Shown in pieces: positions 4,826-18,573 of a stretch of DNA of 32,592 nucleotides; position 1 is the stretch's first letter; every line of letters starts with the position of its first letter. Source of the stretch: Aeromicrobium sp. (lineage in GTDB: Bacteria; Actinomycetota; Actinomycetes; Propionibacteriales; Nocardioidaceae); NCBI GenBank assembly GCA_025964895.1, contig JAOPXY010000115.1, forward strand, positions 1 through 32,592, given 5' to 3'. The translations under genes and the position numbers were made by a program. Below the pieces are notes generated by a model that saw only the letters and a program-made list of their open reading frames with translations, did no database searches and was not told the origin of the DNA.

Positions 4826-5890
4826 GTGAGACGTCATGACACGGGCCGCCGGGGATTCGCGAGCGACAACTACGCCGGAGCGCACCCGGAGGTGCTGGCG
4901 GCGATCGCGGACGCCAACGGCGGCCACCAGGTCTCGTACGGCGCGGACGAGTACACCGCGCGCCTCGTCGAGGTCATGCGCGGCCACCTCGGCGACGGTG
5001 TCGAGGTGTTCCCCGTCTTCAACGGCACGGGCGCCAACGTCACGGCGCTGACCAGCGTCCTGCCCCGATGGGGAGCCGTCGTCACGACCAGCACGGCCCA
5101 CGTCCACACCGACGAGAACGGCGCGCCGGAGCGGATCGGCGGGCTCAAGCTGCTGACGGTCGACACGCCGGACGGCAAGCTGACCCCCGAGCTGATCGAC
5201 CGCGAGGCGTGGGGCTGGGGCGACGAGCACCGCGCGCAGCCGCTGGCGGTGAGCATCACGCAGACCACCGAGCTCGGCACGCTCTACACGGTCGAGGAGA
5301 TCCGGGCCATTGCCGATCATGTCCACGCGAAGGGCATGACCCTGCACATGGACGGCGCCCGCATGTCGAACGCCGCGGCGGCACTGGGGGTCCCGTTGCG
5401 CGAGTTCACGTCCGATGCCGGCGTCGACGTCCTGAGCCTCGGCGGTACCAAGAACGGGACGCTGTACGGCGAGGCGGTCGTGGTACTGACCCCCGGTGCC
5501 TCCGACGGCGTGGTCTACCTGCGCAAGCTCATGATGCAGCTCGCGTCGAAGATGCGGTTCGTCAGCGCGCAGCTGCTGGCGCTGTACGAGGACGACCTGT
5601 ACCTGCGGTCGGCGGGCCATGCCAACGCCATGGCGGCGCGGCTGCGGGCCGCGCTCGAGGACCTGCTCGCGCGCGGCGAGATCTCGGGCCTCTCGTTCTC
5701 GCAGCCGACCCAGGCCAACGGCGTCTTCGCGGTGCTCGACAACGCCGCGGCCGATCGCATCCGCGAGTCGGCCGGCTTCTACGACTGGGACCGCGCCGCG
5801 GGCGAGGTGCGCTGGATGACGGCGTTCGACACGACCGAGGCCGACGTCGACGCCTTCGTGTCCGCGATCCGCCACGAGCTCGCGACCTGA
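4826..5890 (+). CDS. Low-specificity threonine aldolase / beta-eliminating lyase family
   Basis: A 354-residue fold-type I PLP enzyme. The start GFASDNYAGAHPEVLAAI matches threonine aldolases and related beta-eliminating lyases. HMDGARMSNAA (Asp176, Arg179) and SLGGTKNGTLYG with predicted Schiff-base Lys209 are the PLP-site motifs. Family members cleave L-threonine or L-allo-threonine to glycine and acetaldehyde in the cytosol. The GTG at 4826 is used because the conserved N-terminus begins about 10 residues later; only a weak GAAAG precedes it. The flavin reductase begins 7 bp downstream on the same strand and is probably co-transcribed, though a biochemical link is not obvious. Confidence 0.87.
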   Translation: MRRHDTGRRGFASDNYAGAHPEVLAAIADANGGHQVSYGADEYTARLVEVMRGHLGDGVEVFPVFNGTGANVTALTSVLPRWGAVVTTSTAHVHTDENGAPERIGGLKLLTVDTPDGKLTPELIDREAWGWGDEHRAQPLAVSITQTTELGTLYTVEEIRAIADHVHAKGMTLHMDGARMSNAAAALGVPLREFTSDAGVDVLSLGGTKNGTLYGEAVVVLTPGASDGVVYLRKLMMQLASKMRFVSAQLLALYEDDLYLRSAGHANAMAARLRAALEDLLARGEISGLSFSQPTQANGVFAVLDNAAADRIRESAGFYDWDRAAGEVRWMTAFDTTEADVDAFVSAIRHELAT

Positions 5891-5897
5891 CCGCCGC

Positions 5898-6584
5898 GTG
5901 GCACACCAGAACGTCTCGATCGAGCTGACCGTCCGGTCCGTCCGCACCGAGACCCCGCAGCACCTCAGCGTCGTCTACGACCGTCCGCGCGGCTTCGAGT
6001 ACGAGCCGGGCGACTGGATCGACCTCGATCTCGGCGGCGAGCTGAAGGGCGGGCGGACGTACTCGCTGTCGTCATCGCCCACCGAGCCAGATCTCATGAT
6101 CACGTTCAAGGAGGGGCTCAGCGAGGTCAAGCGCGCCCTGGCCGGCTCGCGGCCGGGGGACCGCGCGCGGATCATCGCGTGCGGCAACGACTACGACTTC
6201 CAGCTCGACGAGCGGCGCGTCAGTCAGCTCATCGCCGGCGGCGTGGGCGTCGCGCCGTTCCGCAGCATGCTCAAGGAGATGGTCGACACCGGCAGCCGCG
6301 CCTCGGCCGATCTGCTCTACCTCAACCAGGGGCCCGACTTCCTGTTCAGGGACGAGCTCGACGCGTGGCAGTCCGTCCTGCCCGACACCACGGTCACCTA
6401 CCTGCAGACCCGGGGGATGAAGCGCAAGGAGCGCGAACGGCTGCTTCGGACGTTGATCCCCACCGACGCCCACCTGTACTACATCGCCGGTCCCGCGGGC
6501 ATGATCGAGACGACCGAGGAGCTGCTCGACGCGATGGGCGTCGACCACGACAACATCCGCATCGACAGCTTCGACGGGTACTAG
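5898..6584 (+). CDS. Ferredoxin-NADP reductase-like flavin oxidoreductase
   Basis: A 228-residue single-unit FAD/NAD(P)H reductase of the FNR superfamily. RTYS (53-56), in GGRTYSLSSSP, is the flavin-binding RxYS motif. GGVGVAPFRS (114-123) is the pyridine-nucleotide loop, AGPAGM (197-202) is the next nucleotide-site motif, and the protein ends DSFDGY, like the C-termini that stack on the flavin. There is no iron-sulfur or oxygenase domain, so it should pass electrons between NAD(P)H and a separate carrier; the partner is unknown. The GTG start lies 7 bp after the aldolase stop. Its stop overlaps the convergent esterase stop by 4 bp. Confidence 0.85.
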   Translation: MAHQNVSIELTVRSVRTETPQHLSVVYDRPRGFEYEPGDWIDLDLGGELKGGRTYSLSSSPTEPDLMITFKEGLSEVKRALAGSRPGDRARIIACGNDYDFQLDERRVSQLIAGGVGVAPFRSMLKEMVDTGSRASADLLYLNQGPDFLFRDELDAWQSVLPDTTVTYLQTRGMKRKERERLLRTLIPTDAHLYYIAGPAGMIETTEELLDAMGVDHDNIRIDSFDGY

Positions 6585-7732
6585 CGCGAGCAGCGCGGGC
6601 GAGCCATCTTGACCGTGTAGGTGCCGGTCTTGTCCGGGAGGACGAGCTTGACCCGCGCCGTGAGGTGGCCCGAGCGCTTCTTGAGCGCCTTCTTCGACGT
6701 CAGGATCGAGAACGGAGCCCGGGCGTCGCGGCCGAGGAACTTCCGGTTCACCTTGAAGTCGGCTCGCACGACGGGGCTGCCCTTCGTCAGGACCCGCAGA
6801 CGCACCTTGGAGCCCCGGCACACGGCCTCACCGCGGACGGCCTTGACCAGACGCGTGTCGCGCCGGGCGGCCGCCCGGCGGGCCGCGGTGGTGACGACGG
6901 GCGCCGCGGCCTGCATGCCGATCGCGGTCGGGTGGAAGGAGATCGCTCCGTCAGCGCTGGCCGGGACGAGTCCCTCGATCCACCGCTGGCCTGGCGCCGC
7001 GCAGGCGGTGTGGTCGATCGCTCCGGGCGTCGCGTGCAGATCGGCGAACGTCGACCCGGACGAGCGCGCCGCGTCGCGCAGCACGCCGCTCATGTGATCG
7101 ACGAGGCTCTGGATGTAGTCGGCGTCGGCGGGCGTCAGGGGCTGGACGAGCGGGCAACCGCCCGGCGGGATGTAGAGGCCGTAGCCGACGATGACGATGG
7201 CCGCGTTCGGCGCCTTCTTCTTGATCGCCGCGAGGGCCGCGGCCAGCTCGGTGCGGGTCGCCTCGATCTTGTCGTGGATCGTGCGACCGTCGGCCTGCGC
7301 GCAGCCGGGAGACGTGATGCACCGCGTGACTGTGCTGACGATCCCCGCGTCGTTCGCGCCGATCGGCCCGACGGTCACCAGCGTCGTGTCGCGACGCAGC
7401 GCGTCGATCTGCGCGGGCTCGGAGTCCTGGGGTGTCGTGATGTTGTCGATCGTGGCGCTCGAGCACGTCGCGTCGGTGAATGCACGGACGCCGACGGCCG
7501 CTGCGGTCAGCGTCGCGAAGTTCCGCTCGCTGCGATAGCACGGCCCCCCGCCGGGACGCTGCGGGAGGAGAATCGGTCCGGCCGCGACGGAGTCGCCCAT
7601 CGACACGTAGCGCTCGCCGCCTGGGCCGTTGTCGAGGACCGGGACGGCGGCATTCGCCCCCACCGCGGTCAGGGCCATCGCCACCGCCATCGCCAATGCC
7701 GTCGCGAGCGCCAGAGCCGCCGGTCGTCTCAT
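6581..7732 (-). CDS. Secreted SGNH/GDSL-type esterase or lipase
   Basis: A 383-residue exported hydrolase. A signal peptide covers residues 1-29 (MRRPAALAL start, ANA cleavage). The SGNH blocks are visible: GDS with Ser48, GAND with Asn127 and FHP with His267. Cysteines at 65, 90, 138, 144, 193 and 244 could form three disulfides, as in secreted actinobacterial lipases of this family. From about residue 300 a basic, beta-rich tail (VRLRVLTKGSPVV onward, ending RPRCSR) looks like a small Ig-like or wall-binding module; that is inference. Substrate is unknown (acyl esters, lipids or acylated glycans). A CRP-like site and a candidate promoter lie upstream. Confidence 0.87.
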   Translation of the reverse strand: MRRPAALALATALAMAVAMALTAVGANAAVPVLDNGPGGERYVSMGDSVAAGPILLPQRPGGGPCYRSERNFATLTAAAVGVRAFTDATCSSATIDNITTPQDSEPAQIDALRRDTTLVTVGPIGANDAGIVSTVTRCITSPGCAQADGRTIHDKIEATRTELAAALAAIKKKAPNAAIVIVGYGLYIPPGGCPLVQPLTPADADYIQSLVDHMSGVLRDAARSSGSTFADLHATPGAIDHTACAAPGQRWIEGLVPASADGAISFHPTAIGMQAAAPVVTTAARRAAARRDTRLVKAVRGEAVCRGSKVRLRVLTKGSPVVRADFKVNRKFLGRDARAPFSILTSKKALKKRSGHLTARVKLVLPDKTGTYTVKMARPRCSR

Positions 7733-10368: not shown

Positions 10369-11286
10369 CTAGGGAGCGTCGTCCGCGGACTCCCGCGTGA
10401 ACTCGAAGGCGCGGACGTTGTCGCGCTCGGCCTTGGAATCGTCCTCGGGCTCGTCGGTCCACGAGAGGTCGGGAGGCCCCTGGTCGGGGAAGTGCCCGAC
10501 GTATGCCATCGCTGCGTCGTGCAGCCGGGTGTTGGTCGCGAGGGCGTTGTCGCCCCACGGCCCGGGGGCGCCGGCCAGGCTCGTGAAGGTGCCGCCCGCC
10601 TCCCGCACGATGATGTCGAGCGCGGCCATGTCCCACACGTTGAGCTCGGGCTCGGCGGCGATGTCGACGGCACCCTCGGCCAGCAGCATGTACGACCAGA
10701 AGTCGCCGTACGCCCGGGTGCGCCAGCACCGTCGCATCAGCGCCGCGAAGGCATCGCCGCGACCGATCGCGTCCCAGCCGCCGAGCGAGGCGTACGACAG
10801 CGAGGAGCTGCCGAGGTCGGAGACCTGTGACACGCGGATCTCCCGCGACGACATGAGCGACTTGCCGGTGTGGGCGCCGGTGCCCTTGCTGGCCCACCAG
10901 CGGCGCCCGAGCGCGGGGGCCGAGACGCAGCCCGCGACGACCTCGCCGTCCTCCTCGAGGGCGATCAGCGTGGCCCACACGGGAACGCCGCGCACGAAGT
11001 TCGCGGTGCCGTCGATCGGGTCGACGATCCAGCGGCGTCCGCCGGGCCCGCCCGGACCGTCGTCCTGGCCGTCCTCCTCGCCGAGGACGACATCGCGCGT
11101 GCGGGCCGAGCGCAGCGTGCGGCGGATCGCCGCCTCGACCGCCCGGTCGGACTCGGTCACGTACGTCATGTCCGGCTTCGTGGCGATCTGCAGGTCGTTG
11201 GCCAGGAACCGCTCCATCGAGAGACTGTCGGCGTTGTCCGCGAGCACGTGGGCGAGGCGCAGGTCATCGCCGTACGAGTGGGCCAT
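10369..11286 (-). CDS. hisN: Histidinol-phosphatase of the inositol monophosphatase family
   Basis: A 305-residue Mg-dependent phosphatase. VLGEEDG (Glu70, Glu71) and WIVDPIDGTANF (Asp89, Asp92) are the metal-binding motifs. LNVWDMAALDIIVREAGG is the C-terminal family signature. In actinobacteria this type lies beside rsgA and aroA and acts as histidinol-phosphatase, the penultimate reaction of histidine synthesis; inositol monophosphatase is the alternative. Compared with the usual length of about 260 residues it has an extra acidic tail (after HFPDQGPPDLSW) of unknown use. It is the last gene of the doxX-aroA-rsgA-hisN unit, 76 bp after rsgA. Confidence 0.83.
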   Translation of the reverse strand: MAHSYGDDLRLAHVLADNADSLSMERFLANDLQIATKPDMTYVTESDRAVEAAIRRTLRSARTRDVVLGEEDGQDDGPGGPGGRRWIVDPIDGTANFVRGVPVWATLIALEEDGEVVAGCVSAPALGRRWWASKGTGAHTGKSLMSSREIRVSQVSDLGSSSLSYASLGGWDAIGRGDAFAALMRRCWRTRAYGDFWSYMLLAEGAVDIAAEPELNVWDMAALDIIVREAGGTFTSLAGAPGPWGDNALATNTRLHDAAMAYVGHFPDQGPPDLSWTDEPEDDSKAERDNVRAFEFTRESADDAP

Positions 11287-11362
11287 GGGGGTCAGACTAC
11301 GGCCTGATGCCGCTCCGGCTTCCGGCGGCGCGCGTGACCCTCGGCTGCCGATGGGAGGCGCG

Positions 11363-12349
11363 CTAGTAGTCGTCCCGCTGGTTCATGCTGGTGAGGATGC
11401 GCCGGAACGACTCGACCCGCTCGCTCGCGAGGGTGCCGTCGGCAACCGCCGCGTCGAGCGCGCACTCGGGCTCCGCCGCGGAGTGCAGGCACCCGCGCGG
11501 GCAGTCGCGGGTCACGTCCTGCAGGTCCGGGAACGCCTTGATGAGGTCGTCGATCTGCACATGGGCGAGGCCGAACGACCGGATGCCGGGGGTGTCGATG
11601 ATCCAGCCGCCGAACGGCAGCTCGAGGCTGATGGCGGACGTCGAGGTGTGCCGGCCGCGGCCCGTGACGGCGTTGACGTAGCTGACCGAGCGTCTCGCGT
11701 CCGGCACCAGCGCATTGACCAGCGTCGACTTGCCGACCCCGCTGTGGCCCACCAGGACGCTTGTGCGGTCGCGAAGGACGTCGCGCACGGCGTCGAGGTC
11801 GCCGTCCTGCCGCGTCACCACGACACGGACCCCTAGCGGCTCGAGCATCGCGACGAGCTCGTCGGCGGGGCCGAGGTCCGACTTCGTGAGGCACACCAGC
11901 GGTTCCATGCCGGCGTCGAACGCCGCGACGAGGCAGCGGTCGATGAGCCCGGGGCGCGGCGGCGGGTCGGCGAGCGCGGCGACGATCACGAGCTGGTCGG
12001 CGTTGGCGACGATGATGCGCTCGATCGGGTCGTCGTCATCGGCGGTGCGGCGCAGGACCGTCCGTCGCGGCGTGACCTCGACGATGCGGGCGAGGGATCC
12101 CTCGTCGCCCGAGACGTCGCCGACCACCCTGACCTCGTCGCCGACGATGACGCCCTTGCGGCCCAGGTTGCGTGACTTCATCGCGGTGATCGTGCGGGTG
12201 TCGCCGGCGAGCCGCACGGTGTACCGGCCGCGGTCGATCGTCACGACCCGGGCGGTGTCCGCCTCGTCGTAGTTGGGGCGCACCTTGGTCCGCGGCTTGG
12301 TGTGCCGTCGCGGACGGTCGAATCGGTCGTGCTCGTCACGCTCCCTCAT
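11363..12349 (-). CDS. rsgA: Ribosome small-subunit biogenesis GTPase RsgA
   Basis: A 328-residue circularly permuted GTPase that checks late 30S maturation. A basic N-terminus and OB-fold (to about 110) come first. Then the G motifs appear in permuted order: TKSD (155-158), GHSGVGKST (201-209) and DTPG (252-255). The zinc site is Cys283, Cys287, His289 and Cys296. All expected elements are present, and the length is normal. It starts 12 bp after aroA ends, so the two are almost certainly co-transcribed. Confidence 0.95.
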   Translation of the reverse strand: MRERDEHDRFDRPRRHTKPRTKVRPNYDEADTARVVTIDRGRYTVRLAGDTRTITAMKSRNLGRKGVIVGDEVRVVGDVSGDEGSLARIVEVTPRRTVLRRTADDDDPIERIIVANADQLVIVAALADPPPRPGLIDRCLVAAFDAGMEPLVCLTKSDLGPADELVAMLEPLGVRVVVTRQDGDLDAVRDVLRDRTSVLVGHSGVGKSTLVNALVPDARRSVSYVNAVTGRGRHTSTSAISLELPFGGWIIDTPGIRSFGLAHVQIDDLIKAFPDLQDVTRDCPRGCLHSAAEPECALDAAVADGTLASERVESFRRILTSMNQRDDY

Positions 12350-12361
12350 GACGGCGCCGCC

Positions 12362-13663
12362 CTACGCGTCGCTCGTCATGAGGTGTTCCCAGACGGGCGC
12401 GAAGTCCGGGTAGGTCTTGATCGTCGTGTTGACGTTCTCGACGAACAGGTCCGGCACCCGCAGGCCCAGCACGACACCTGCGTGCGCCATCCGGTGGTCG
12501 TCGTACGTGCGGAACGTCTCGCCGTGCAGCGGGCGGGGACGGATCAGCAGACCGTCGTCGAGCTCCTCGGCGTCGCCGCCCAGCCGGTTGATCTCGGTGA
12601 CGAGCGCCTTGAGCCGATCGGTCTCGTGCCCCCGCAGGTGTGCGACGCCGGTCAGCCGCGACGGCGTCAGCGCGAGCGCCGCCGTCGCCGCGATGACGGG
12701 CGTCAGCTCGCCGACGTCGTGCAGGTCGAGCTCGACGCCCTGCGGCGAGGAGGCGCCCGCCGCGAAGACCAGGTCGTCGCCGTCCTCGGTCACGGTGCCG
12801 CCGAACGCGGGGACGATCCAGCGCCACGCGTCGCCGGCCTGGTCGGTGCCGGCCGGCCAGCTGCGCACTCGCACGCTGCCGCCCGTGACCAGCGCCGCCG
12901 CGATGAAGACGCCGGCATTCGACAGATCGGGCTCGATGTCGACGCCGAGGGCGCCGATGGGTCCCGGGTGGACGACCCATCGCCCCGGCTCGTCGCTGTC
13001 CACGCGGACGCCCCGGCGGCGCAGCTCGGCGACCGTCATGTCGATGTGCGGCATCGACGGCACGCTGGTGCCGGTGTGCCGCAGGTCGAGTCCGCGCGTG
13101 AACCGCGCACCGACCAGCAGGAGCGCCGAGACGAACTGGCTGGACGCCGAGGCGTCGATCTCGACGGTGCCGCCCTCGATCGTCCCGGTGCCGTGCACGG
13201 TGAAGGGCAGGCTGCCCCGTCCGTCGTCGTCGACCCTGACGCCGAGGCTGCGCAGCGTCTGGATCGTCGTGGCCATGGGACGCACCCGCGCGTGCTCGTC
13301 GCCGTCGAACGTCACGGGCGCGCTGCCCAGCGCGGCGAGCAGGGGCACGAATCGCATGACCGTGCCGGCCAGCCCGCAGTCGATCGTGGCCGCGGCGGCC
13401 CCCAGCACGGCGGGCGGCGTGACGGTCCACGTCGTGTCGCCGCCGCGCACCTCCGCCTCCGCCGTCGCGCCGAGCGCCGTGAGCGCCCGGACCATGAGCT
13501 GCGTGTCGCGCGACGCGAGGGGACGCGTCAGGACCGACGGGCCGTCGCCCAGCGCCGCGAGGATGAGGACCCGGTTGGTCAGCGACTTCGAGCCCGGCAC
13601 GAGGATCTCGCCCACGAAGGGCGAGTCGCGGTGCGGGGCGGGCCAGCGCAGGGAAGTGGTCAT
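12362..13663 (-). CDS. aroA: 3-phosphoshikimate 1-carboxyvinyltransferase (EPSP synthase)
   Basis: A 433-residue EPSP synthase, the sixth step of the shikimate pathway: it joins phosphoenolpyruvate to shikimate 3-phosphate in the cytosol. PGSKSLTNR (23-31) is the substrate-binding signature, CGLAGTVMRF is the LxxAGTxxR motif, and YDDHRMAHAGVVLGL is the C-terminal signature. The ATG at 13663 is preferred. A GTG at 13672 is in frame, but the AGGGTGG there looks more like part of the ribosome site. It lies between the doxX-like gene (34 bp upstream) and rsgA (12 bp downstream). Confidence 0.95.
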   Translation of the reverse strand: MTTSLRWPAPHRDSPFVGEILVPGSKSLTNRVLILAALGDGPSVLTRPLASRDTQLMVRALTALGATAEAEVRGGDTTWTVTPPAVLGAAAATIDCGLAGTVMRFVPLLAALGSAPVTFDGDEHARVRPMATTIQTLRSLGVRVDDDGRGSLPFTVHGTGTIEGGTVEIDASASSQFVSALLLVGARFTRGLDLRHTGTSVPSMPHIDMTVAELRRRGVRVDSDEPGRWVVHPGPIGALGVDIEPDLSNAGVFIAAALVTGGSVRVRSWPAGTDQAGDAWRWIVPAFGGTVTEDGDDLVFAAGASSPQGVELDLHDVGELTPVIAATAALALTPSRLTGVAHLRGHETDRLKALVTEINRLGGDAEELDDGLLIRPRPLHGETFRTYDDHRMAHAGVVLGLRVPDLFVENVNTTIKTYPDFAPVWEHLMTSDA

Positions 13664-13696
13664 CGCAACCACCCTATCGGCGGGCCCGGGGGAGTG

Positions 13697-14182
13697 TCAG
13701 TGACGGATGTGGTCCAGCTGGTCGGCGACGGAGGCCGCGGCCTCGGTGACCTTGTCCTTGGCGCGTCGGCCGATGAACTTCTTGTGCGGCTCCGGGTCCA
13801 ACGTGGCCATCAGCAGGCCGCCGGTCATGGACATGTTCTTGATGAAGTGGATGCGCTGGTTCGCGCGCGCGGCGGGGTCGGTCTCGTTCCAGTACGGGTG
13901 GCCCGTGATCGTCGTCGGCGGCACCGTCGCCGCGAGCACCAGTGCCGACAGGCGCGGCACGTGGCCCGTGGCGAGCGCCAGGCCCGCCGTCACGTGCAGG
14001 GCACCGGTCAACCGGGTCAGGTTCGAGCCGTTGACCGGCAGGTTCGGCGCGATCTTCTTGATGAGGTCGGCCGTGGGCTGGGCCTTCGCCGCCCGGGGAC
14101 CGGGATCCTTGAGCGCCATGGCACCCCCGTAGACGAACATCGAGGCGAGCATCGGGCGGGCCACCGTGCGCAGGAGGGTCAT
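13697..14182 (-). CDS. DoxX family membrane protein
   Basis: A 161-residue DoxX-type protein. It begins MTLLRTVARPMLASMFVYGG, then has a LTGALHVTAGLALATG membrane helix, a VLAATVPPTTITGHPYW segment and IHFIKNMSMTGGLLMATL. This is the usual four-helix pattern. Some relatives work in thiosulfate:quinone or thiol oxidation; the exact role of this subgroup is unknown. A charged tail (KKFIGRRAKDK) faces the cytosol. It leads the aroA operon, an arrangement I recall from other actinobacteria, and its closeness to sigR would fit a redox link; that is inference. Confidence 0.85.
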   Translation of the reverse strand: MTLLRTVARPMLASMFVYGGAMALKDPGPRAAKAQPTADLIKKIAPNLPVNGSNLTRLTGALHVTAGLALATGHVPRLSALVLAATVPPTTITGHPYWNETDPAARANQRIHFIKNMSMTGGLLMATLDPEPHKKFIGRRAKDKVTEAAASVADQLDHIRH

Positions 14183-14207
14183 GACCCATTCATACCCGAC
14201 CCGGCGG

Positions 14208-15893
14208 CTACAGGACCAGCAGGTACGGATCGGCCCGGAACGCCACGGTGTTGTCGTCCGGCCTCGGGTCGCCCTCGGCGGCGATCGAGATCGTGCCGGC
14301 CGGCCGAAGGCCCTTGACCTTCGCGACGAACGTCGTGCCCTGCCCGGCCGGCAGGACGGTCGTGCACGTCAGTGTGCGGACGACCTGGTTGCGGACGGCG
14401 TCTCCGCAGTCCCATCCCGCGCTCACGACGCCCCTGAACCGGACGTCGTGCGTGAACTGCATCGACAGGGTCACCCGCTGGTCGGCGGCCCGTCCGCCGT
14501 TGGTGGCCGTGACGGGGATCGTGAAGCGTCGCTGCAGGAGGGAGTCGTCGTCGGTGATCGCGACCCCGCCGATGCCGTAGTCCGTGGGCAGGACGGGCCC
14601 CGGCTCCGGCTCCGGTTGGGTCTGGTCCGGGGAGGTGAGCACGGCCTCCTCGTCGGCTTCCTTCTCATCGGCGTCCGGCGACGGCTCGGGCTCGGACGGT
14701 TCGGGCTCGGACGCCTGGGCCTGGGTCGGCTCAGTCGGTTCGGGCGACGGCGTGGGGAGAGAGATCGGCGTCGGAAGGGACGGTTGGGGCGACGGCACCG
14801 GGACCTCCGACGGCACGCTGCCGTCCGACGGCCGCGGGGTGGATGGATCGGGCTCGCCGCCGCCGGCGCGTCCCGCTACGGCGGGACCGGGCGACGAGAC
14901 CGAGGTGTCGCCCGATCCGCCGAAGTTGGTCGTCGCGGCGACCGTCCCGGCCGTCGCGACGCTCGTGACGACGGCGGCCGCGACGACGCCCTGCGCGCCG
15001 GCACCGGCGATCGCGGTGCCGGCGATCTTGACCGGCGCGATCGCGACCTTGACTGCCTCGACCGCCAGGAGCTTGGCGCCGGCCACCGACGCGATGCCGG
15101 CGCCCACGCCTGCCCCGGCGCCGGACGCGGCGTAGCCCGCAAAGGCCGCCCCCAGCAGCGCGGGACCGAGGACGCCGGAGAGATGGGAGTTGACCTCGGC
15201 CAGCTCCAGGTGCAACCCGGCGCAGCGGCTGCACTCGTCGAGGTGCTGCTCGACCCGGCCCGTGTCACGCGCCGACAGGCCGTGGCGCACGTACGCGCCG
15301 AGCATGCCGGTCGTCCGGGCGCAGCCGTCGTGCAGCGTGGGGGCGAGGTGGCCCTGCAGGTACGCCTGGCGGAGTCCCTCGCGGGCCCGGTACGCGAGGG
15401 CCGAGACGCTGTTGGCGCTCATGCCCAGCAGGGGCGCGATGTCGGCGGGCTTCTGGCCCTCGACGTCCAGGTGCCACAGGACGAGCTGCCAGCGCTCGGG
15501 CAGGGAGGAGAACGCGGTCGCCGCGGCCGAGTGCTCGAAGCGCACCTCCGCGGGGTCGACGAACTCGACGGTCCGGTCCAGCACGGCGTCGTCGTCGGTC
15601 GACCGCACCTTGCTGCCCGAGCGGATGCGATCGATGTGCAGGCGCCGGATCGCGGTCAGCAGGTAGGCGCGGAACGCCTCGTCAGGCCCCTTGCCGTCCT
15701 GCAGGATCGTCATGACCCGGACGAACGACTCCGCGACCAGGTCGTCGGCGTCGGGCCCGCGCACGAGCTGGCGGGCCATGCGGGCGGCCGCCTCGCGATG
15801 CCGGTCGAACAGGCGGCCGTAGGCGTCCAGATGGCCTCCGCGCACAGCGGAGATCAGGTCGGCATCCGTCGTGCCGGCGGTTGCGTCGAGCAT
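14208..15893 (-). CDS. ECF sigma factor fused to zinc-finger, membrane and exported domains
   Basis: A 561-residue composite protein. Sigma region 2 is about 24-92 (DADDLVAESFVRVMTILQDG) and region 4 about 125-178 (LPERWQLVLWHLDV, ending in the NSVSALAYRAREGLRQAY helix). Next comes a zinc-finger anti-sigma-like motif, His217-x3-Cys221-x2-Cys224, with Cys191 upstream. Two small-residue hydrophobic stretches (about 238-280 and 301-320) can span the membrane. A Pro/Glu/Ser-rich linker (about 330-440) leads to a C-terminal beta-rich domain (about 445-561) with two cysteines (WDCGD, LTCTT), resembling DUF11/CARDB repeats. Actinobacterial ECF groups with C-terminal extensions (ECF52/53 types) share this plan. 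The start at 15893 follows an AGGGGG site. The likely role is surface sensing that sequesters or frees its own sigma domain. Confidence 0.85.
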   Translation of the reverse strand: MLDATAGTTDADLISAVRGGHLDAYGRLFDRHREAAARMARQLVRGPDADDLVAESFVRVMTILQDGKGPDEAFRAYLLTAIRRLHIDRIRSGSKVRSTDDDAVLDRTVEFVDPAEVRFEHSAAATAFSSLPERWQLVLWHLDVEGQKPADIAPLLGMSANSVSALAYRAREGLRQAYLQGHLAPTLHDGCARTTGMLGAYVRHGLSARDTGRVEQHLDECSRCAGLHLELAEVNSHLSGVLGPALLGAAFAGYAASGAGAGVGAGIASVAGAKLLAVEAVKVAIAPVKIAGTAIAGAGAQGVVAAAVVTSVATAGTVAATTNFGGSGDTSVSSPGPAVAGRAGGGEPDPSTPRPSDGSVPSEVPVPSPQPSLPTPISLPTPSPEPTEPTQAQASEPEPSEPEPSPDADEKEADEEAVLTSPDQTQPEPEPGPVLPTDYGIGGVAITDDDSLLQRRFTIPVTATNGGRAADQRVTLSMQFTHDVRFRGVVSAGWDCGDAVRNQVVRTLTCTTVLPAGQGTTFVAKVKGLRPAGTISIAAEGDPRPDDNTVAFRADPYLLVL

Positions 15894-16021
15894 CTGCTGC
15901 CCCCTGTCCCTCCCTGGTACCAACGACCGAATCACGTCCGCGTCACGAAGACCAGTGCTAATCGCGTCATGTTTTGCCGCGGCATCCGTCTCACCTGTGT
16001 CCGGCCAGGAAGGAGAACCGC

Positions 16022-16675
16022 ATGTCAGCCTCGGGAATGAACATTCGGCTCCTTCACGACGCCGTCCGTGACGGCGGGTCGGACGTGATCGGTGTTGCAC
16101 ACGAGGTGGGAGCGAGTGCAGCACATCTGGGCGTCCCGCTCCACGAGGTCCTCGACCTCGTGGAGCGGGCCTTCGCCCCTGACGTGCCCGACTTCCGGGC
16201 GACACGCGAGGCCGCGGTCGCGTGGGCGGAGACCGCGATGCTGCGCGACGCCGACGAGTCGTGCGAGGACCCGTTGACGTCGCTGGCCACGGCCTCGCAC
16301 CTGCGGTCCAGGCTGGGGGAGGTGTACCGGGCAGCCGACCGCGACGGCGTGGGAGTCGCCGGACGGCACGTCCTGGTCGTCGTCGAGCTGCCACGGACCT
16401 CATCTGGTCACGAGCTCGAGCTGTCGCTGCGGGCGCTCGAGCTCGGCGAGATGCTCCGGTCGGTGTTCCAGGGTGATGAGACGATCGCCCAGCTGACGCC
16501 GCGCCGGTTCGCGGTGCTGGCCGAACGCGGCCGCGCCGATGACCTCACCATGGCGCTGCTCGGCATCCTGGTCAGCCGCGCGACGTCCCACGACGGGCAG
16601 GCCCGGTTGTGGGTCGAGGAGCTTCCAGCGACCAGCGACGGCATCGCGCAGGTCATCGCCGGCCTCTGCGAGTAG
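16022..16675 (+). CDS. Degenerate GGDEF-domain protein
   Basis: A 217-residue protein, started at 16022 because AAGGAG (16010-16015) precedes it. DPLTSLATASHLRSRLGEVY at about residue 80 is the unmistakable opening of a GGDEF domain (compare DPLTGLxNRxxLxxxL). At the active-site position, however, the sequence reads AQLTPRRFAVLAERG, where RxGGDEFAVL is expected. The catalytic GG(D/E)EF is therefore gone, and cyclase activity is unlikely. The N-terminal 75 residues are a helical region without a known domain. It could bind GTP or c-di-GMP, or serve as a scaffold. It is divergent from the sigma fusion, sharing a 128-bp gap, which suggests a regulatory tie. Confidence 0.7.
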   Translation: MSASGMNIRLLHDAVRDGGSDVIGVAHEVGASAAHLGVPLHEVLDLVERAFAPDVPDFRATREAAVAWAETAMLRDADESCEDPLTSLATASHLRSRLGEVYRAADRDGVGVAGRHVLVVVELPRTSSGHELELSLRALELGEMLRSVFQGDETIAQLTPRRFAVLAERGRADDLTMALLGILVSRATSHDGQARLWVEELPATSDGIAQVIAGLCE

Positions 16676-16726
16676 CCGCTGCCGCTGCGAGCGACGGCTG
16701 TCGGTGCCCTGTGGCAGGCTGGACGC

Positions 16727-17473
16727 ATGTGCGGCCGCTACGCGACGACCCAGACGTCCTCGACGCTGCACCAGGCCTTCGAGATCGATCTGGCCAACTC
16801 ATTTGTCGAGCTCGAGGCCGACTTCAACATGGCACCGACCAAGCTCGCGCCCGTCGTGATCGGTCGCGCCGCAGACGACGCCGCGACCGAGCGGACGCAG
16901 CCAGGCCGGCCCGTCCAGCGCGAGCTGCTGACGGCGCGCTGGGGGCTCATCCCGAGCTGGGCGAAGGACCCGTCGATCGGCAACCGCATGATCAACGCCC
17001 GGTCCGAGACCGTCGCGGAGAAGCCGGCGTTCAAGAAGGCCTTCGCGTCCCGGCGCGCGCTCGTGCCCGCCGACGGATACTACGAGTGGTACGCCGGCGA
17101 GCCGCGCGAGGGCGAGAAGAAGCCGGCCAAGCAGCCGTTCTACATCACCCCCAAGGACGGATCCGTCCTGGCGATGGCGGGTCTCTACGAGTTCTGGAAG
17201 GACCGCGAGGCCGATGAGTGGGTCGTGAGCTACACGATCTTGACCACGACGGCGCAGGACGACCTGGGGCACGTCCACGAGCGCATGCCGCTGTTCCTCG
17301 AGCCCGACGCCTACGACGCGTGGCTCGACCCCGCGCCGCACGGAGCCGACGAGCTGCTGGGTCTGCTGGTCCCGGCCGCACCCGGACGTCTCGACGCCTT
17401 CCCGGTCTCGACGGCGGTCAACAACGTCCGCAACAACGGTCCCGAGCTGATCGTGCCGCTCGAGGCCCAGTAG
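16727..17473 (+). CDS. SRAP-domain abasic-site processing protein (YedK/HMCES family)
   Basis: A 248-residue SRAP protein. After Met removal, Cys2 (MCGRYA) is the residue that crosslinks to abasic sites in single-stranded DNA. FNMAPT (33-38), RMINARSET with Asn90, YYEW with Glu120, and GHVHERMP with His184 are the other family motifs. It shields abasic sites at replication forks by a thiazolidine DNA-protein bond. The length is typical. No ribosome site precedes the ATG, and a CAGGCT box ends 7 bp upstream, so the transcript may be leaderless. It lies just ahead of sigR on the same strand; a stress-response link is plausible. Confidence 0.93.
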
Positions 17474-17484
17474 CGGCCTCCCAC

Positions 17485-17510
17485 GGAATAGTCGGCCTCT
17501 CCCGTCGGTT
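17485..17510 (+). promoter_or_regulatory. SigR-type promoter (GGAAT-N18-GTT) upstream of sigR
   Basis: GGAAT (17485-17489), exactly 18 bp, then GTT (17508-17510) matches the SigR/SigH promoter consensus known from Streptomyces and mycobacteria. Transcription should start near 17517, giving a leader of about 13 nt that carries AGGAGG (17520-17525) before the ATG at 17530. This is the expected autoregulated, oxidation-inducible promoter. Confidence 0.8.
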
Positions 17511-17529
17511 GAACCCCGTAGGAGGACAC

Positions 17530-18243
17530 ATGCTGACACACGCACCGGCAGCGGCTGATCGCTCGATCACACCACTGCGCAGGCCCCCGGTCCCGGGAGT
17601 AGGCTGGGAGACGATGACCGTCACCCCTGAGACCCCAGACGTCCCCGATGCGCGGGAGACCGAGAGCCCGGAGCAGAGGCAGATCCGCTTCGAGGTCGAC
17701 GCCCTGCCGTTCCTCGACCAGCTGTACTCGGCCGCGCTGCGCATGACGCGCAATCCGCACGACGCCGAGGACCTGGTCCAGGAGACCTACTCCAAGGCGT
17801 TCAGCGCCTTCCACCAGTTCAGGCCCGGCACGAACCTGAAGGCCTGGCTGTACCGCATCCTCACCAACACGTACATCAACGCGTACCGCAAGAAGCAGCG
17901 CCAGCCGCAGCAGGTCACCGACGAGATCGAGGACTGGCAGATCGCTCGCGCCGAGTCGCACGGCTCGTCCGGCCTCAAGTCCGCCGAGATGGAGGCGCTC
18001 GAGCACCTTCCGGACAGCGACGTCAAGGACGCGCTGCAGGCCCTGCCGGAGGACTTCCGCTACGCGGTGTACCTGGCCGACGTCGAAGGTTTCCCCTACA
18101 AGGAGATCGCCCAGATCATGGACACGCCGATCGGCACCGTGATGTCTCGCCTGCACCGCGGGCGCCGCATGCTGCGCGAGATGCTGGCCGACTACGCCCG
18201 TGACCGCGGCATGGCCGTGACGGGAGTGGGTGAGTCGAAGTGA
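17530..18243 (+). CDS. sigR: Thiol-oxidative-stress ECF sigma factor SigR (with two possible starts)
   Basis: An ECF sigma factor of the SigR/SigH group. From ATG 17614 it is 209 residues: region 2 about 33-95 ([37 protein letters not shown]) and region 4 about 137-192 ([23 protein letters not shown]). It directs thiol-homeostasis and proteolysis genes when its anti-sigma RsrA is oxidised. I annotate the longer form because ATG 17530 is in frame (28 extra codons, 237 residues) and has an AGGAGG site directly below the SigR-type promoter. ATG 17614 has a GGGAG site and a TAGGCT box (17600-17605) 8 bp upstream, consistent with a constitutive, near-leaderless short form. Its stop overlaps the rsrA start (GTGA). 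Confidence 0.92.
17600..17605 (+). promoter_or_regulatory. Possible constitutive -10 box for the short SigR form
   Basis: TAGGCT fits TANNNT and ends 8 bp before ATG 17614, the spacing of a leaderless or near-leaderless actinobacterial transcript. No convincing -35 is visible. It would correspond to the sigRp1 promoter of Streptomyces. Confidence 0.4.
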
Positions 18244-18509
18244 ACAACTGCGAAGGTCCCGACTGCGAGAAGGCACTGCAGAACCTGTACCTGTTCATCG
18301 ACCAGGAGATCGACACCGCGAGCTGCGCCGAGATCCAGACGCACATCGACGAGTGCACGACGTGCCTGAGCGAGTACGACCTCGAGCGCGTCGTCAAGAG
18401 CCTGGTGTCCCGGTCGTGCTCGGAGGTCGCCCCCGATCCCCTGCGCGAAAAGGTGCTGCTGACGATCCGCACCGTGCAGGTGCAGGTCACCGAGCAGCGA
18501 TCGGGCTGA
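18240..18509 (+). CDS. rsrA: Redox-sensing zinc anti-sigma factor RsrA
   Basis: An 89-residue ZAS-family anti-sigma factor. Cys9, His35, Cys39 and Cys42 reproduce the zinc ligands of Streptomyces RsrA (Cys11, His37, Cys41, Cys44) with identical spacing. Further cysteines at 4, 29 and 60 are also like RsrA. In the reduced, zinc-bound state it binds SigR; disulfide formation between the zinc cysteines ejects zinc and frees SigR. The GTG start overlaps the sigR stop by 4 nt, giving coupled, near-equal synthesis. A strong hairpin terminator follows 27 bp downstream. Confidence 0.93.
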
Positions 18510-18535
18510 CCCGCCGGCGACAGCCCCGCGAACGA

Positions 18536-18567
18536 CAGAGCCCCCGTCCACCAGGACGGGGGCTCTG
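18536..18567. terminator. Bidirectional hairpin terminator
   Basis: A perfect 14-bp stem (18536-18549 with 18554-18567, core AGAGCCCCCGTCC) closes a 4-nt ACCA loop between the convergent rsrA and bL37 genes. There is no U-tract, as is common in actinobacteria. Confidence 0.88.
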
Positions 18568-18573
18568 CTGATG

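Follow-up and report, generated by a model that had tools for sequence, protein, structure and literature searches.

A fused ECF sigma factor of Aeromicrobium with a cis zinc finger, a likely membrane anchor and an outer domain, and its conserved pseudo-GGDEF partner

The window, that is, the whole 32,592-nucleotide stretch of Aeromicrobium DNA that was analysed, carries on its minus strand a gene (14208..15893) for a 561-aa protein in which an ECF sigma factor is followed by a zinc finger, a likely membrane anchor, a stalk and an outer domain. Beside it, in the opposite direction, lies a gene for a degenerate GGDEF-like protein that co-occurs with it. The sigma-finger-anchor-outer design is already known in actinobacteria; the conserved pseudo-GGDEF partner is the new part and may be a second component of the switch. 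The reading preferred here, to which a probability of about 0.5 is given, is that of a one-protein envelope sensor that proteolysis would set free, the pseudo-GGDEF protein giving a second input from the cytoplasm. Fusions of the ECF48, ECF52 and ECF53 types have been little explored experimentally, and SCO4117 is the one genetically studied member in the literature surveyed, as far as its openly available text goes. The conserved partner supplies a missing handle on such ECF fusions, a second gene through which they can be studied.

Domain make-up of the ECF protein

All features of this protein lie on the minus strand. The protein matched the sigma70-ECF profile TIGR02937 (E=1.3e-17, above the cut-off). 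Sigma70 region 2 was located at residues 28-94 (15612..15812; Pfam PF04542, E=1.9e-9, above the curated cut-off) and region 4 at residues 125-172 (15378..15521; Sigma70_r4_2, PF08281, E=8.7e-6), the latter match lying, with 25.7 bits, exactly at its cut-off. In a structure comparison, region 4 of the model matched region 4 of SigL in 3hug. An anti-sigma-type finger, zf-HC2, follows at residues 191-225 (15219..15323; PF13490, E=6e-8, above the cut-off) and was found at the same place in the genome search. It has the form Cys-x25-His-x3-Cys-x2-Cys. The earlier note on this DNA had read His217-x3-Cys221-x2-Cys224 together with Cys191, and these positions hold: in a 99-row alignment, the rows of which were preselected by score and length, Cys191, His217 and Cys221 are invariant and Cys224 is present in at least 90 %. 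By these profile matches, the protein is an ECF sigma factor that carries its zinc-finger anti-sigma motif in cis. Overall confidence of the structural models was low (pTM 0.49 for the sigma-finger model and 0.32 for the full-length model), and domain contacts, such as a clamp of the finger on sigma 2 and sigma 4, were not legible in them. A structural search with the sigma-finger model was uninformative on the fold of the finger, the best 50 of 251 rows being sigma-type chains.

The strongest hydrophobic segment, residues 302-320 (14934..14990), is a likely membrane span. Its mean Kyte-Doolittle hydropathy of 1.79, the best of any 19-residue stretch, is moderate only. The charge asymmetry around the segment is regular, the net positive charge being greater before than after the strongest post-finger segment in 99 of 105 proteins, less in 2 and equal in 4. 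This asymmetry supports an N-in/C-out orientation, with the sigma part inside and the outer domain outside, and the membrane segment or segments proposed earlier are retained as a likely anchor. A juxtamembrane hydrophobic segment at residues 238-258 (15120..15182), identified by hydropathy and kept in the alignments, could be a span or an in-plane helix. Since two full spans would place the outer domain inside, it is tentatively read as a helix embedded in the membrane or lying along its surface, not as a full span. By a simple threshold, two hydrophobic segments were counted in 68 of 104 relatives, one in 24, three in 11 and four in 1.

A Pro/Glu/Ser-rich stalk (about residues 322-432; 14598..14930), recognized from its sequence and modelled at low confidence without secondary structure, leads to an outer beta-sandwich with Cys496 and Cys510 (about residues 433-558; 14220..14597). 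The beta-rich outer domain with two cysteines on a Pro/Glu-rich stalk, as described in the earlier note, was thus recovered. AlphaFold2 modelled residues 431-550 confidently as a beta-sandwich (block means 85-97, in a full-length model with pTM 0.32). Foldseek ranked the adhesin CLIPPER domain 9ifr first (E=2.3e-6), ahead of sigma chains, TTHA1873, and domains of complement and integrin; the beta-sandwich rows obtained with VIA-align had Z values of 9.2-10.7. As modelled, the outer domain appears to be an Ig-like beta-sandwich, a common fold from which the ligand is not deducible. A DUF11/CARDB-like domain had been proposed for this part, a label that would depend on resemblance in fold; Pfam gave no match to DUF11 (PF01345) in the protein and, in its outer part, only Ig_GpJ_C, below the cut-off.

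Four residues, Trp494, Cys496, Cys510 and Asp542, do not vary among 25 full-length relatives, namely those of the 45 distinct relatives that have a comparable outer end. When the C-terminal parts of 64 relatives were scanned with Pfam at E 0.001, ricin-type lectin (6), Ig (6), NPCBM (5, a total that is not broken down by row) and Big_6 (5) domains were found, and more rarely DUF11 (2), DUF3344 (2) and DUF642 (1). From these comparisons of sequence, the sigma and finger part is conserved and the outer module is swapped among relatives. With outer domains this diverse, having one of its own is nothing unusual in a protein of this kind. The matches of outer domains to binding or adhesin-like modules in relatives would count in favour of a sensor.

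Some variation was noted around the outer domain. In many of the 25 aligned proteins a hydrophobic tail (PYLLVL, LWPLS) directly follows it, at 14211-14228 in the window. Two Aeromicrobium-type proteins of 807 and 718 aa (L026 and L025, respectively) have very long Pro-Thr-Glu repeat stalks. As judged by eye, L033, L027, L030 and L028, of family f3 (same order, genomes of about 8 Mb), apparently carry three repeats of the Trp/Cys outer domain.

The gene encodes 561 aa plus a stop from an ATG at 15893 to 14208. Its frame is unbroken, as had been reported in the earlier note, from which the strand was absent, and the gene is whole in its genome. A G-rich, RBS-like stretch is present directly 5' of the ATG. 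A longer start, which would give 731 aa from 16403, was ruled out because the frame would cross the partner gene and because the ATG at 15893 has the RBS-like stretch. A frameshift between the sigma part and the C-terminal part, which had been named as the finding that would overturn the claim of a single protein, or an annotation artefact, was ruled out by the recurrence of the fusion: 41 of 45 distinct relatives have at least 466 aa, and from this together with the invariant outer residues it is concluded that the fusion is real. The single protein with sigma factor, zinc finger, anchor and outer domain is likewise upheld by the Pfam matches and the hydropathy. The 45 distinct relatives come from the first 58 loci, in which 56 frames were preselected for a finger-like motif, (H/Y)-x2-3-C-x2-C. 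The four below that length are those of L050 and L024, L002 as a paralogue from the same genome, and, in L046, a short gene from Aeromicrobium. At the last locus (Aeromicrobium sp. 9AM, 4974-7393), the short ECF-zinc-finger gene is placed immediately ahead of a full-length paralogue of the fusion; the partner was not found beside them. The window is one contig of the source assembly (3.44 Mb, 218 contigs), in which one more strong match, to a frame of 397 aa on contig 198, was found along with two weak ones. The closest named relatives of the protein are from Aeromicrobium.

Relationship to described ECF fusions

An ECF match at E 1e-20 or better was present in 46 of 58 related genomes, the own genome included, and 25 ECF loci were obtained by searching genome contigs. 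At E 1e-40, the sigma-finger profile A1 matched in 22 of 396 genomes of the phylum and in at least 138 of 394 of the class; an additional 60 regions were hand-picked from the phylum and class matches listed, to span genera. A rapid maximum-likelihood tree was computed for 105 rows, with SH-aLRT support only and with SCO4117 itself outside the tree. In it, the window ECF falls within a 70-row branch (95 % SH-aLRT) that contains no rows of f11 or of f6, a family inferred to be Streptomyces-like on grounds that include the NPCBM domain.

The earlier note had compared the protein with the ECF52/53 type, and a search for the same architecture showed it to be a known design in actinobacteria, in ECF48, ECF52 and ECF53 (PMC8999054, PMC5826349). 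As far as the openly available text of the sources goes, proteins of these groups combine a zinc finger with one to two helices, their extensions reach up to 400 residues, and their activation is expected to be proteolytic (PMC8999054, PMC5826349, PMC10766802). ECF48 and ECF53 resemble the window protein in their C-terminal anti-sigma-like fusion, which has a zinc finger and either one or two membrane helices (PMC8999054). The studied ECF52 member, SCO4117 of Streptomyces coelicolor, has a carbohydrate-binding module (PMC8999054, PMC5826349, PMC10766802); when it was cut back to its sigma part, the effect was weaker than upon loss of the gene (PMC8999054, PMC5826349). The likeness to SCO4117 comprises the ECF sigma part, zf-HC2, a membrane segment, a Pro-rich stretch, an outer domain and the actinobacterial origin (PMC5826349). 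The transmembrane region and Pro-rich extension of ECF52 were found in the window protein as judged from hydropathy, charge bias and stalk sequence. It differs from ECF52 in its outer domain, in which Pfam gave no NPCBM match, in its sigma part, which groups apart from the NPCBM-bearing proteins of f6, and in its pseudo-GGDEF partner, a search of f6 genomes having shown none in the vicinity of the ECF. On the first two of these features ECF52 membership was rejected, and as the branch of the window protein holds no f6 or f11 rows, it is called a sister variant and not an ECF52 protein. The class comparison in the earlier note is kept for the architecture, which is of the described kind, and is not extended to membership of ECF52 or ECF53.

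A further parallel is IutY (ECF243) of Pseudomonas putida, in which a sigma factor and a membrane-bound anti-sigma factor form one chain that is activated proteolytically; it functions, however, in Gram-negative siderophore signalling, and neither such a zinc finger nor such a stalk is described for it in the openly available text of the source (PMC8999054). In the accessible parts of the openly licensed literature, no description of this architecture in Nocardioides or Aeromicrobium was found.

The pseudo-GGDEF partner

The partner gene (16022..16675, plus strand; 217 aa) starts 128 bases upstream of the ECF gene and runs in the opposite direction. It was missing from the account in the earlier note. 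The window's own partner protein has no Pfam match, and its assignment is based on a family alignment (A3), on the match of that alignment to GGDEF profiles, and on co-occurrence and adjacency. A3 comprises 54 of the 56 partner frames found, the partial frames of L011 and L047 being excluded. Among the 54 members, Pfam recognized GGDEF in 3 and GGDEF_2 in 4. A profile search of the PDB with A3 gave three matches below E 0.05, namely FimX twice and TpbB, and alignment of A3 with five GGDEF domains from the same genome gave an hhalign probability of 94.3 % (P 1.1e-7, 84 columns), compared with 0.3 % and 0.1 % for control alignments. Despite their standing as the top profile matches, the GGDEF domains of FimX and TpbB differ from the partner family, since none of 65 partner frames has the signature GG(D/E)(D/E)F and none of 54 has RxxD just ahead of the signature site. 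In the window partner, Thr-Pro-Arg-Arg-Phe (159-163) occupies this site. An active diguanylate cyclase was ruled out because the signature is missing in 65 of 65 frames; by these alignments, the partner is a GGDEF-related, degenerate and non-catalytic protein.

Proposed mechanism

In the preferred reading, the cytoplasmic sigma domains would be kept inactive by the zinc-finger domain that follows in the same chain. The membrane span would tether the sigma part, and the Pro-rich stalk would lift the outer beta-sandwich into or past the cell wall. Upon gain or loss of a wall or surface ligand by the outer domain, stepwise proteolysis would free the sigma part, which could then drive its own ECF-type promoter as well as others. 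The pseudo-GGDEF protein would act in the cytoplasm as a dedicated partner: by binding the sigma part or the finger, it would provide a second input. This role is modelled on RmdB of Streptomyces venezuelae, whose GGDEF domain binds sigma-WhiG in competition with the anti-sigma factor RsiG, which is thereby blocked (PMC13232838). Sigma-WhiG itself is not known as an ECF sigma factor. According to the available text of the source, RmdB differs in being an active phosphodiesterase, whereas the partner has no enzyme signature. If the partner binds the sigma part, the principle described in 2026 for RmdB and sigma-WhiG would extend to ECF sigma factors and to a signature-less protein. In a wider reading, against which the odds lie somewhat, the two genes might form a widespread actinobacterial module: a dedicated, catalytically dead GGDEF-fold protein would control, from the cytoplasmic side, a membrane-bound, self-inhibited ECF with swappable sensors, and envelope and cytoplasmic, possibly c-di-GMP-related, signals would be joined on one sigma factor.

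The ECF might instead work while tethered, with ligand or tension altering the finger domain and RNA polymerase binding the sigma part at the membrane, without proteolysis. Such a mode of action would suit a finger that sits in cis, 18 residues separating its match from that of region 4, and a Pfam scan found no membrane protease among 20 window proteins, SRAP being the only one named a peptidase. SRAP is of the cytoplasmic SOS-response type. However, protease genes may sit away from the ECF locus, and both the expectation for ECF48, ECF52 and ECF53 and the precedent of IutY favour proteolysis (PMC8999054), which leaves action in the tethered state unlikely.

Linkage of the two genes

The fair count for co-occurrence is that in a family sample of 61 genomes, in which the ECF was present in 33, the partner in 34, both in 32 and neither in 26 (thresholds E 1e-100 for the ECF, chosen after seeing the list, and E 1e-15 for the partner). 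The unpaired cases are G475, with the ECF only, and G494 and G469, with the partner only, a partial and weaker ECF match being present in G469. With a looser ECF threshold (E 1e-40), the partner was found in 33 of 37 ECF-bearing family genomes. Fisher's test on the co-occurrence gave a P of 8e-14, a value that ignores descent. According to the coordinates, 30 of the 32 family pairs are adjacent, 29 being divergent and one tandem (G489); the others are located on two contigs (G454) or about 14 kb apart (G456). A higher count, 42 of 45 loci with a partner, comes from a biased set, because most of 20 regions were chosen after paired zinc-finger matches had been seen. A second, more distant ECF-partner pair in convergent order was observed on contig 4 of G501, at about 235-237 kb.

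On the 105-row tree, the partner is divergent in 57 rows (in L100 by a label assigned by hand, the partner having been found there) and tandem in 7, with none in 41, of which L238 has just 361 bases of upstream DNA. The state of the partner changes 7 times on this tree versus 38 times in shuffles. Within the window's own clade, no partner was found beside 13 of 70 rows. The pair also occurs in other actinobacterial families, divergent or tandem and in surroundings that differ for the most part; in six f94 loci, a diverged partner of the same orientation precedes the sigma match by about 50 bases. The f6 and f11 loci that were inspected show no partner next to the ECF. A search of 23 genomes with the partner profile gave some match in 17, and by position only that of G438 adjoins its ECF; the matches elsewhere in those genomes would be like ordinary GGDEF proteins. 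A subclade of f92 is without partner, and a rebuilt partner profile gave no further match in the 105 loci. In this subclade (L190, L193, L197, L200, L203 and L206), the divergent neighbour reads by eye like an orotate phosphoribosyltransferase. In the accessible parts of the openly licensed literature, no ECF with a GGDEF partner was found described, and a term search of the available text of a 2021 ECF review gave no mention of GGDEF (PMC8103513).

The gene order at 10369-18571 of the window is inositol phosphatase, rsgA, aroA, doxX, ECF, partner, SRAP, a sigR-type sigma gene and finally a short frame with a zf-HC2 match (18264-18365), whose position makes it RsrA-like. A frame at 18230-18571 appears to lie in a different reading frame from this match, and its matches in other loci are disregarded. 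Much of this neighbourhood is conserved within Nocardioidaceae, and adjacency there is therefore weak evidence on its own. In 35 of 45 loci, a partly biased set, the side of the partner also carries SRAP and sigR-type matches, and the pseudo-GGDEF gene could be an unrelated neighbour, retained by general conservation of gene order. The partnerless subclade of f92 would fit this explanation, as would the rsgA and inositol-phosphatase matches retained at L208 (f94) and the inositol-phosphatase match at three of the four Prauserella loci (L052-L054). It is opposed by the result for 22 loci of Prauserella, Cellulomonas and families f92, f94, f95, f101, f114, f115 and f77, in which no SRAP, doxX or aroA was found beside the pair in flanks that mostly extend 2.5 to 5 kb upstream and are shorter at contig ends; the 'sigR' matches in these non-Nocardioidaceae loci overlap the ECF itself. 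Moreover, the orientation is altered in f94 and G489, and 26 of the 28 family genomes without the ECF are also without the partner. Mere neighbourhood is, on balance, an improbable explanation of the linkage. Less probable still is a redox or metal switch in the zinc finger, with the outer part as a mere anchor and the SigR-type locus as a link to thiol-stress control: the zinc ligands are conserved and the ECF gene lies in Nocardioidaceae near a second ECF-type sigma gene ('sigR') followed by the short zf-HC2 frame, but this neighbourhood was not found in the flanks examined around the pair in other families, and the four invariant outer residues are kept in 25 sequences.

Promoter-like element

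A putative promoter-like element, CGTGAC-N16-CGTTG, was located at 15921..15947 on the minus strand, from a footprint in Aeromicrobium-type loci and its match in the window. A loose form of the pattern gave 29 matches in the genome versus 4 for a reversed control. The attempt to derive a regulon from it was dropped, and none is claimed, because the window's own match is the sole one of the 29 that is 27 bases long. The strict pattern (spacer 14-17) was present in 14 of 105 loci, all of Aeromicrobium type, with an expected total of <0.1 in base shuffles. It is plausible that the ECF controls its own promoter.
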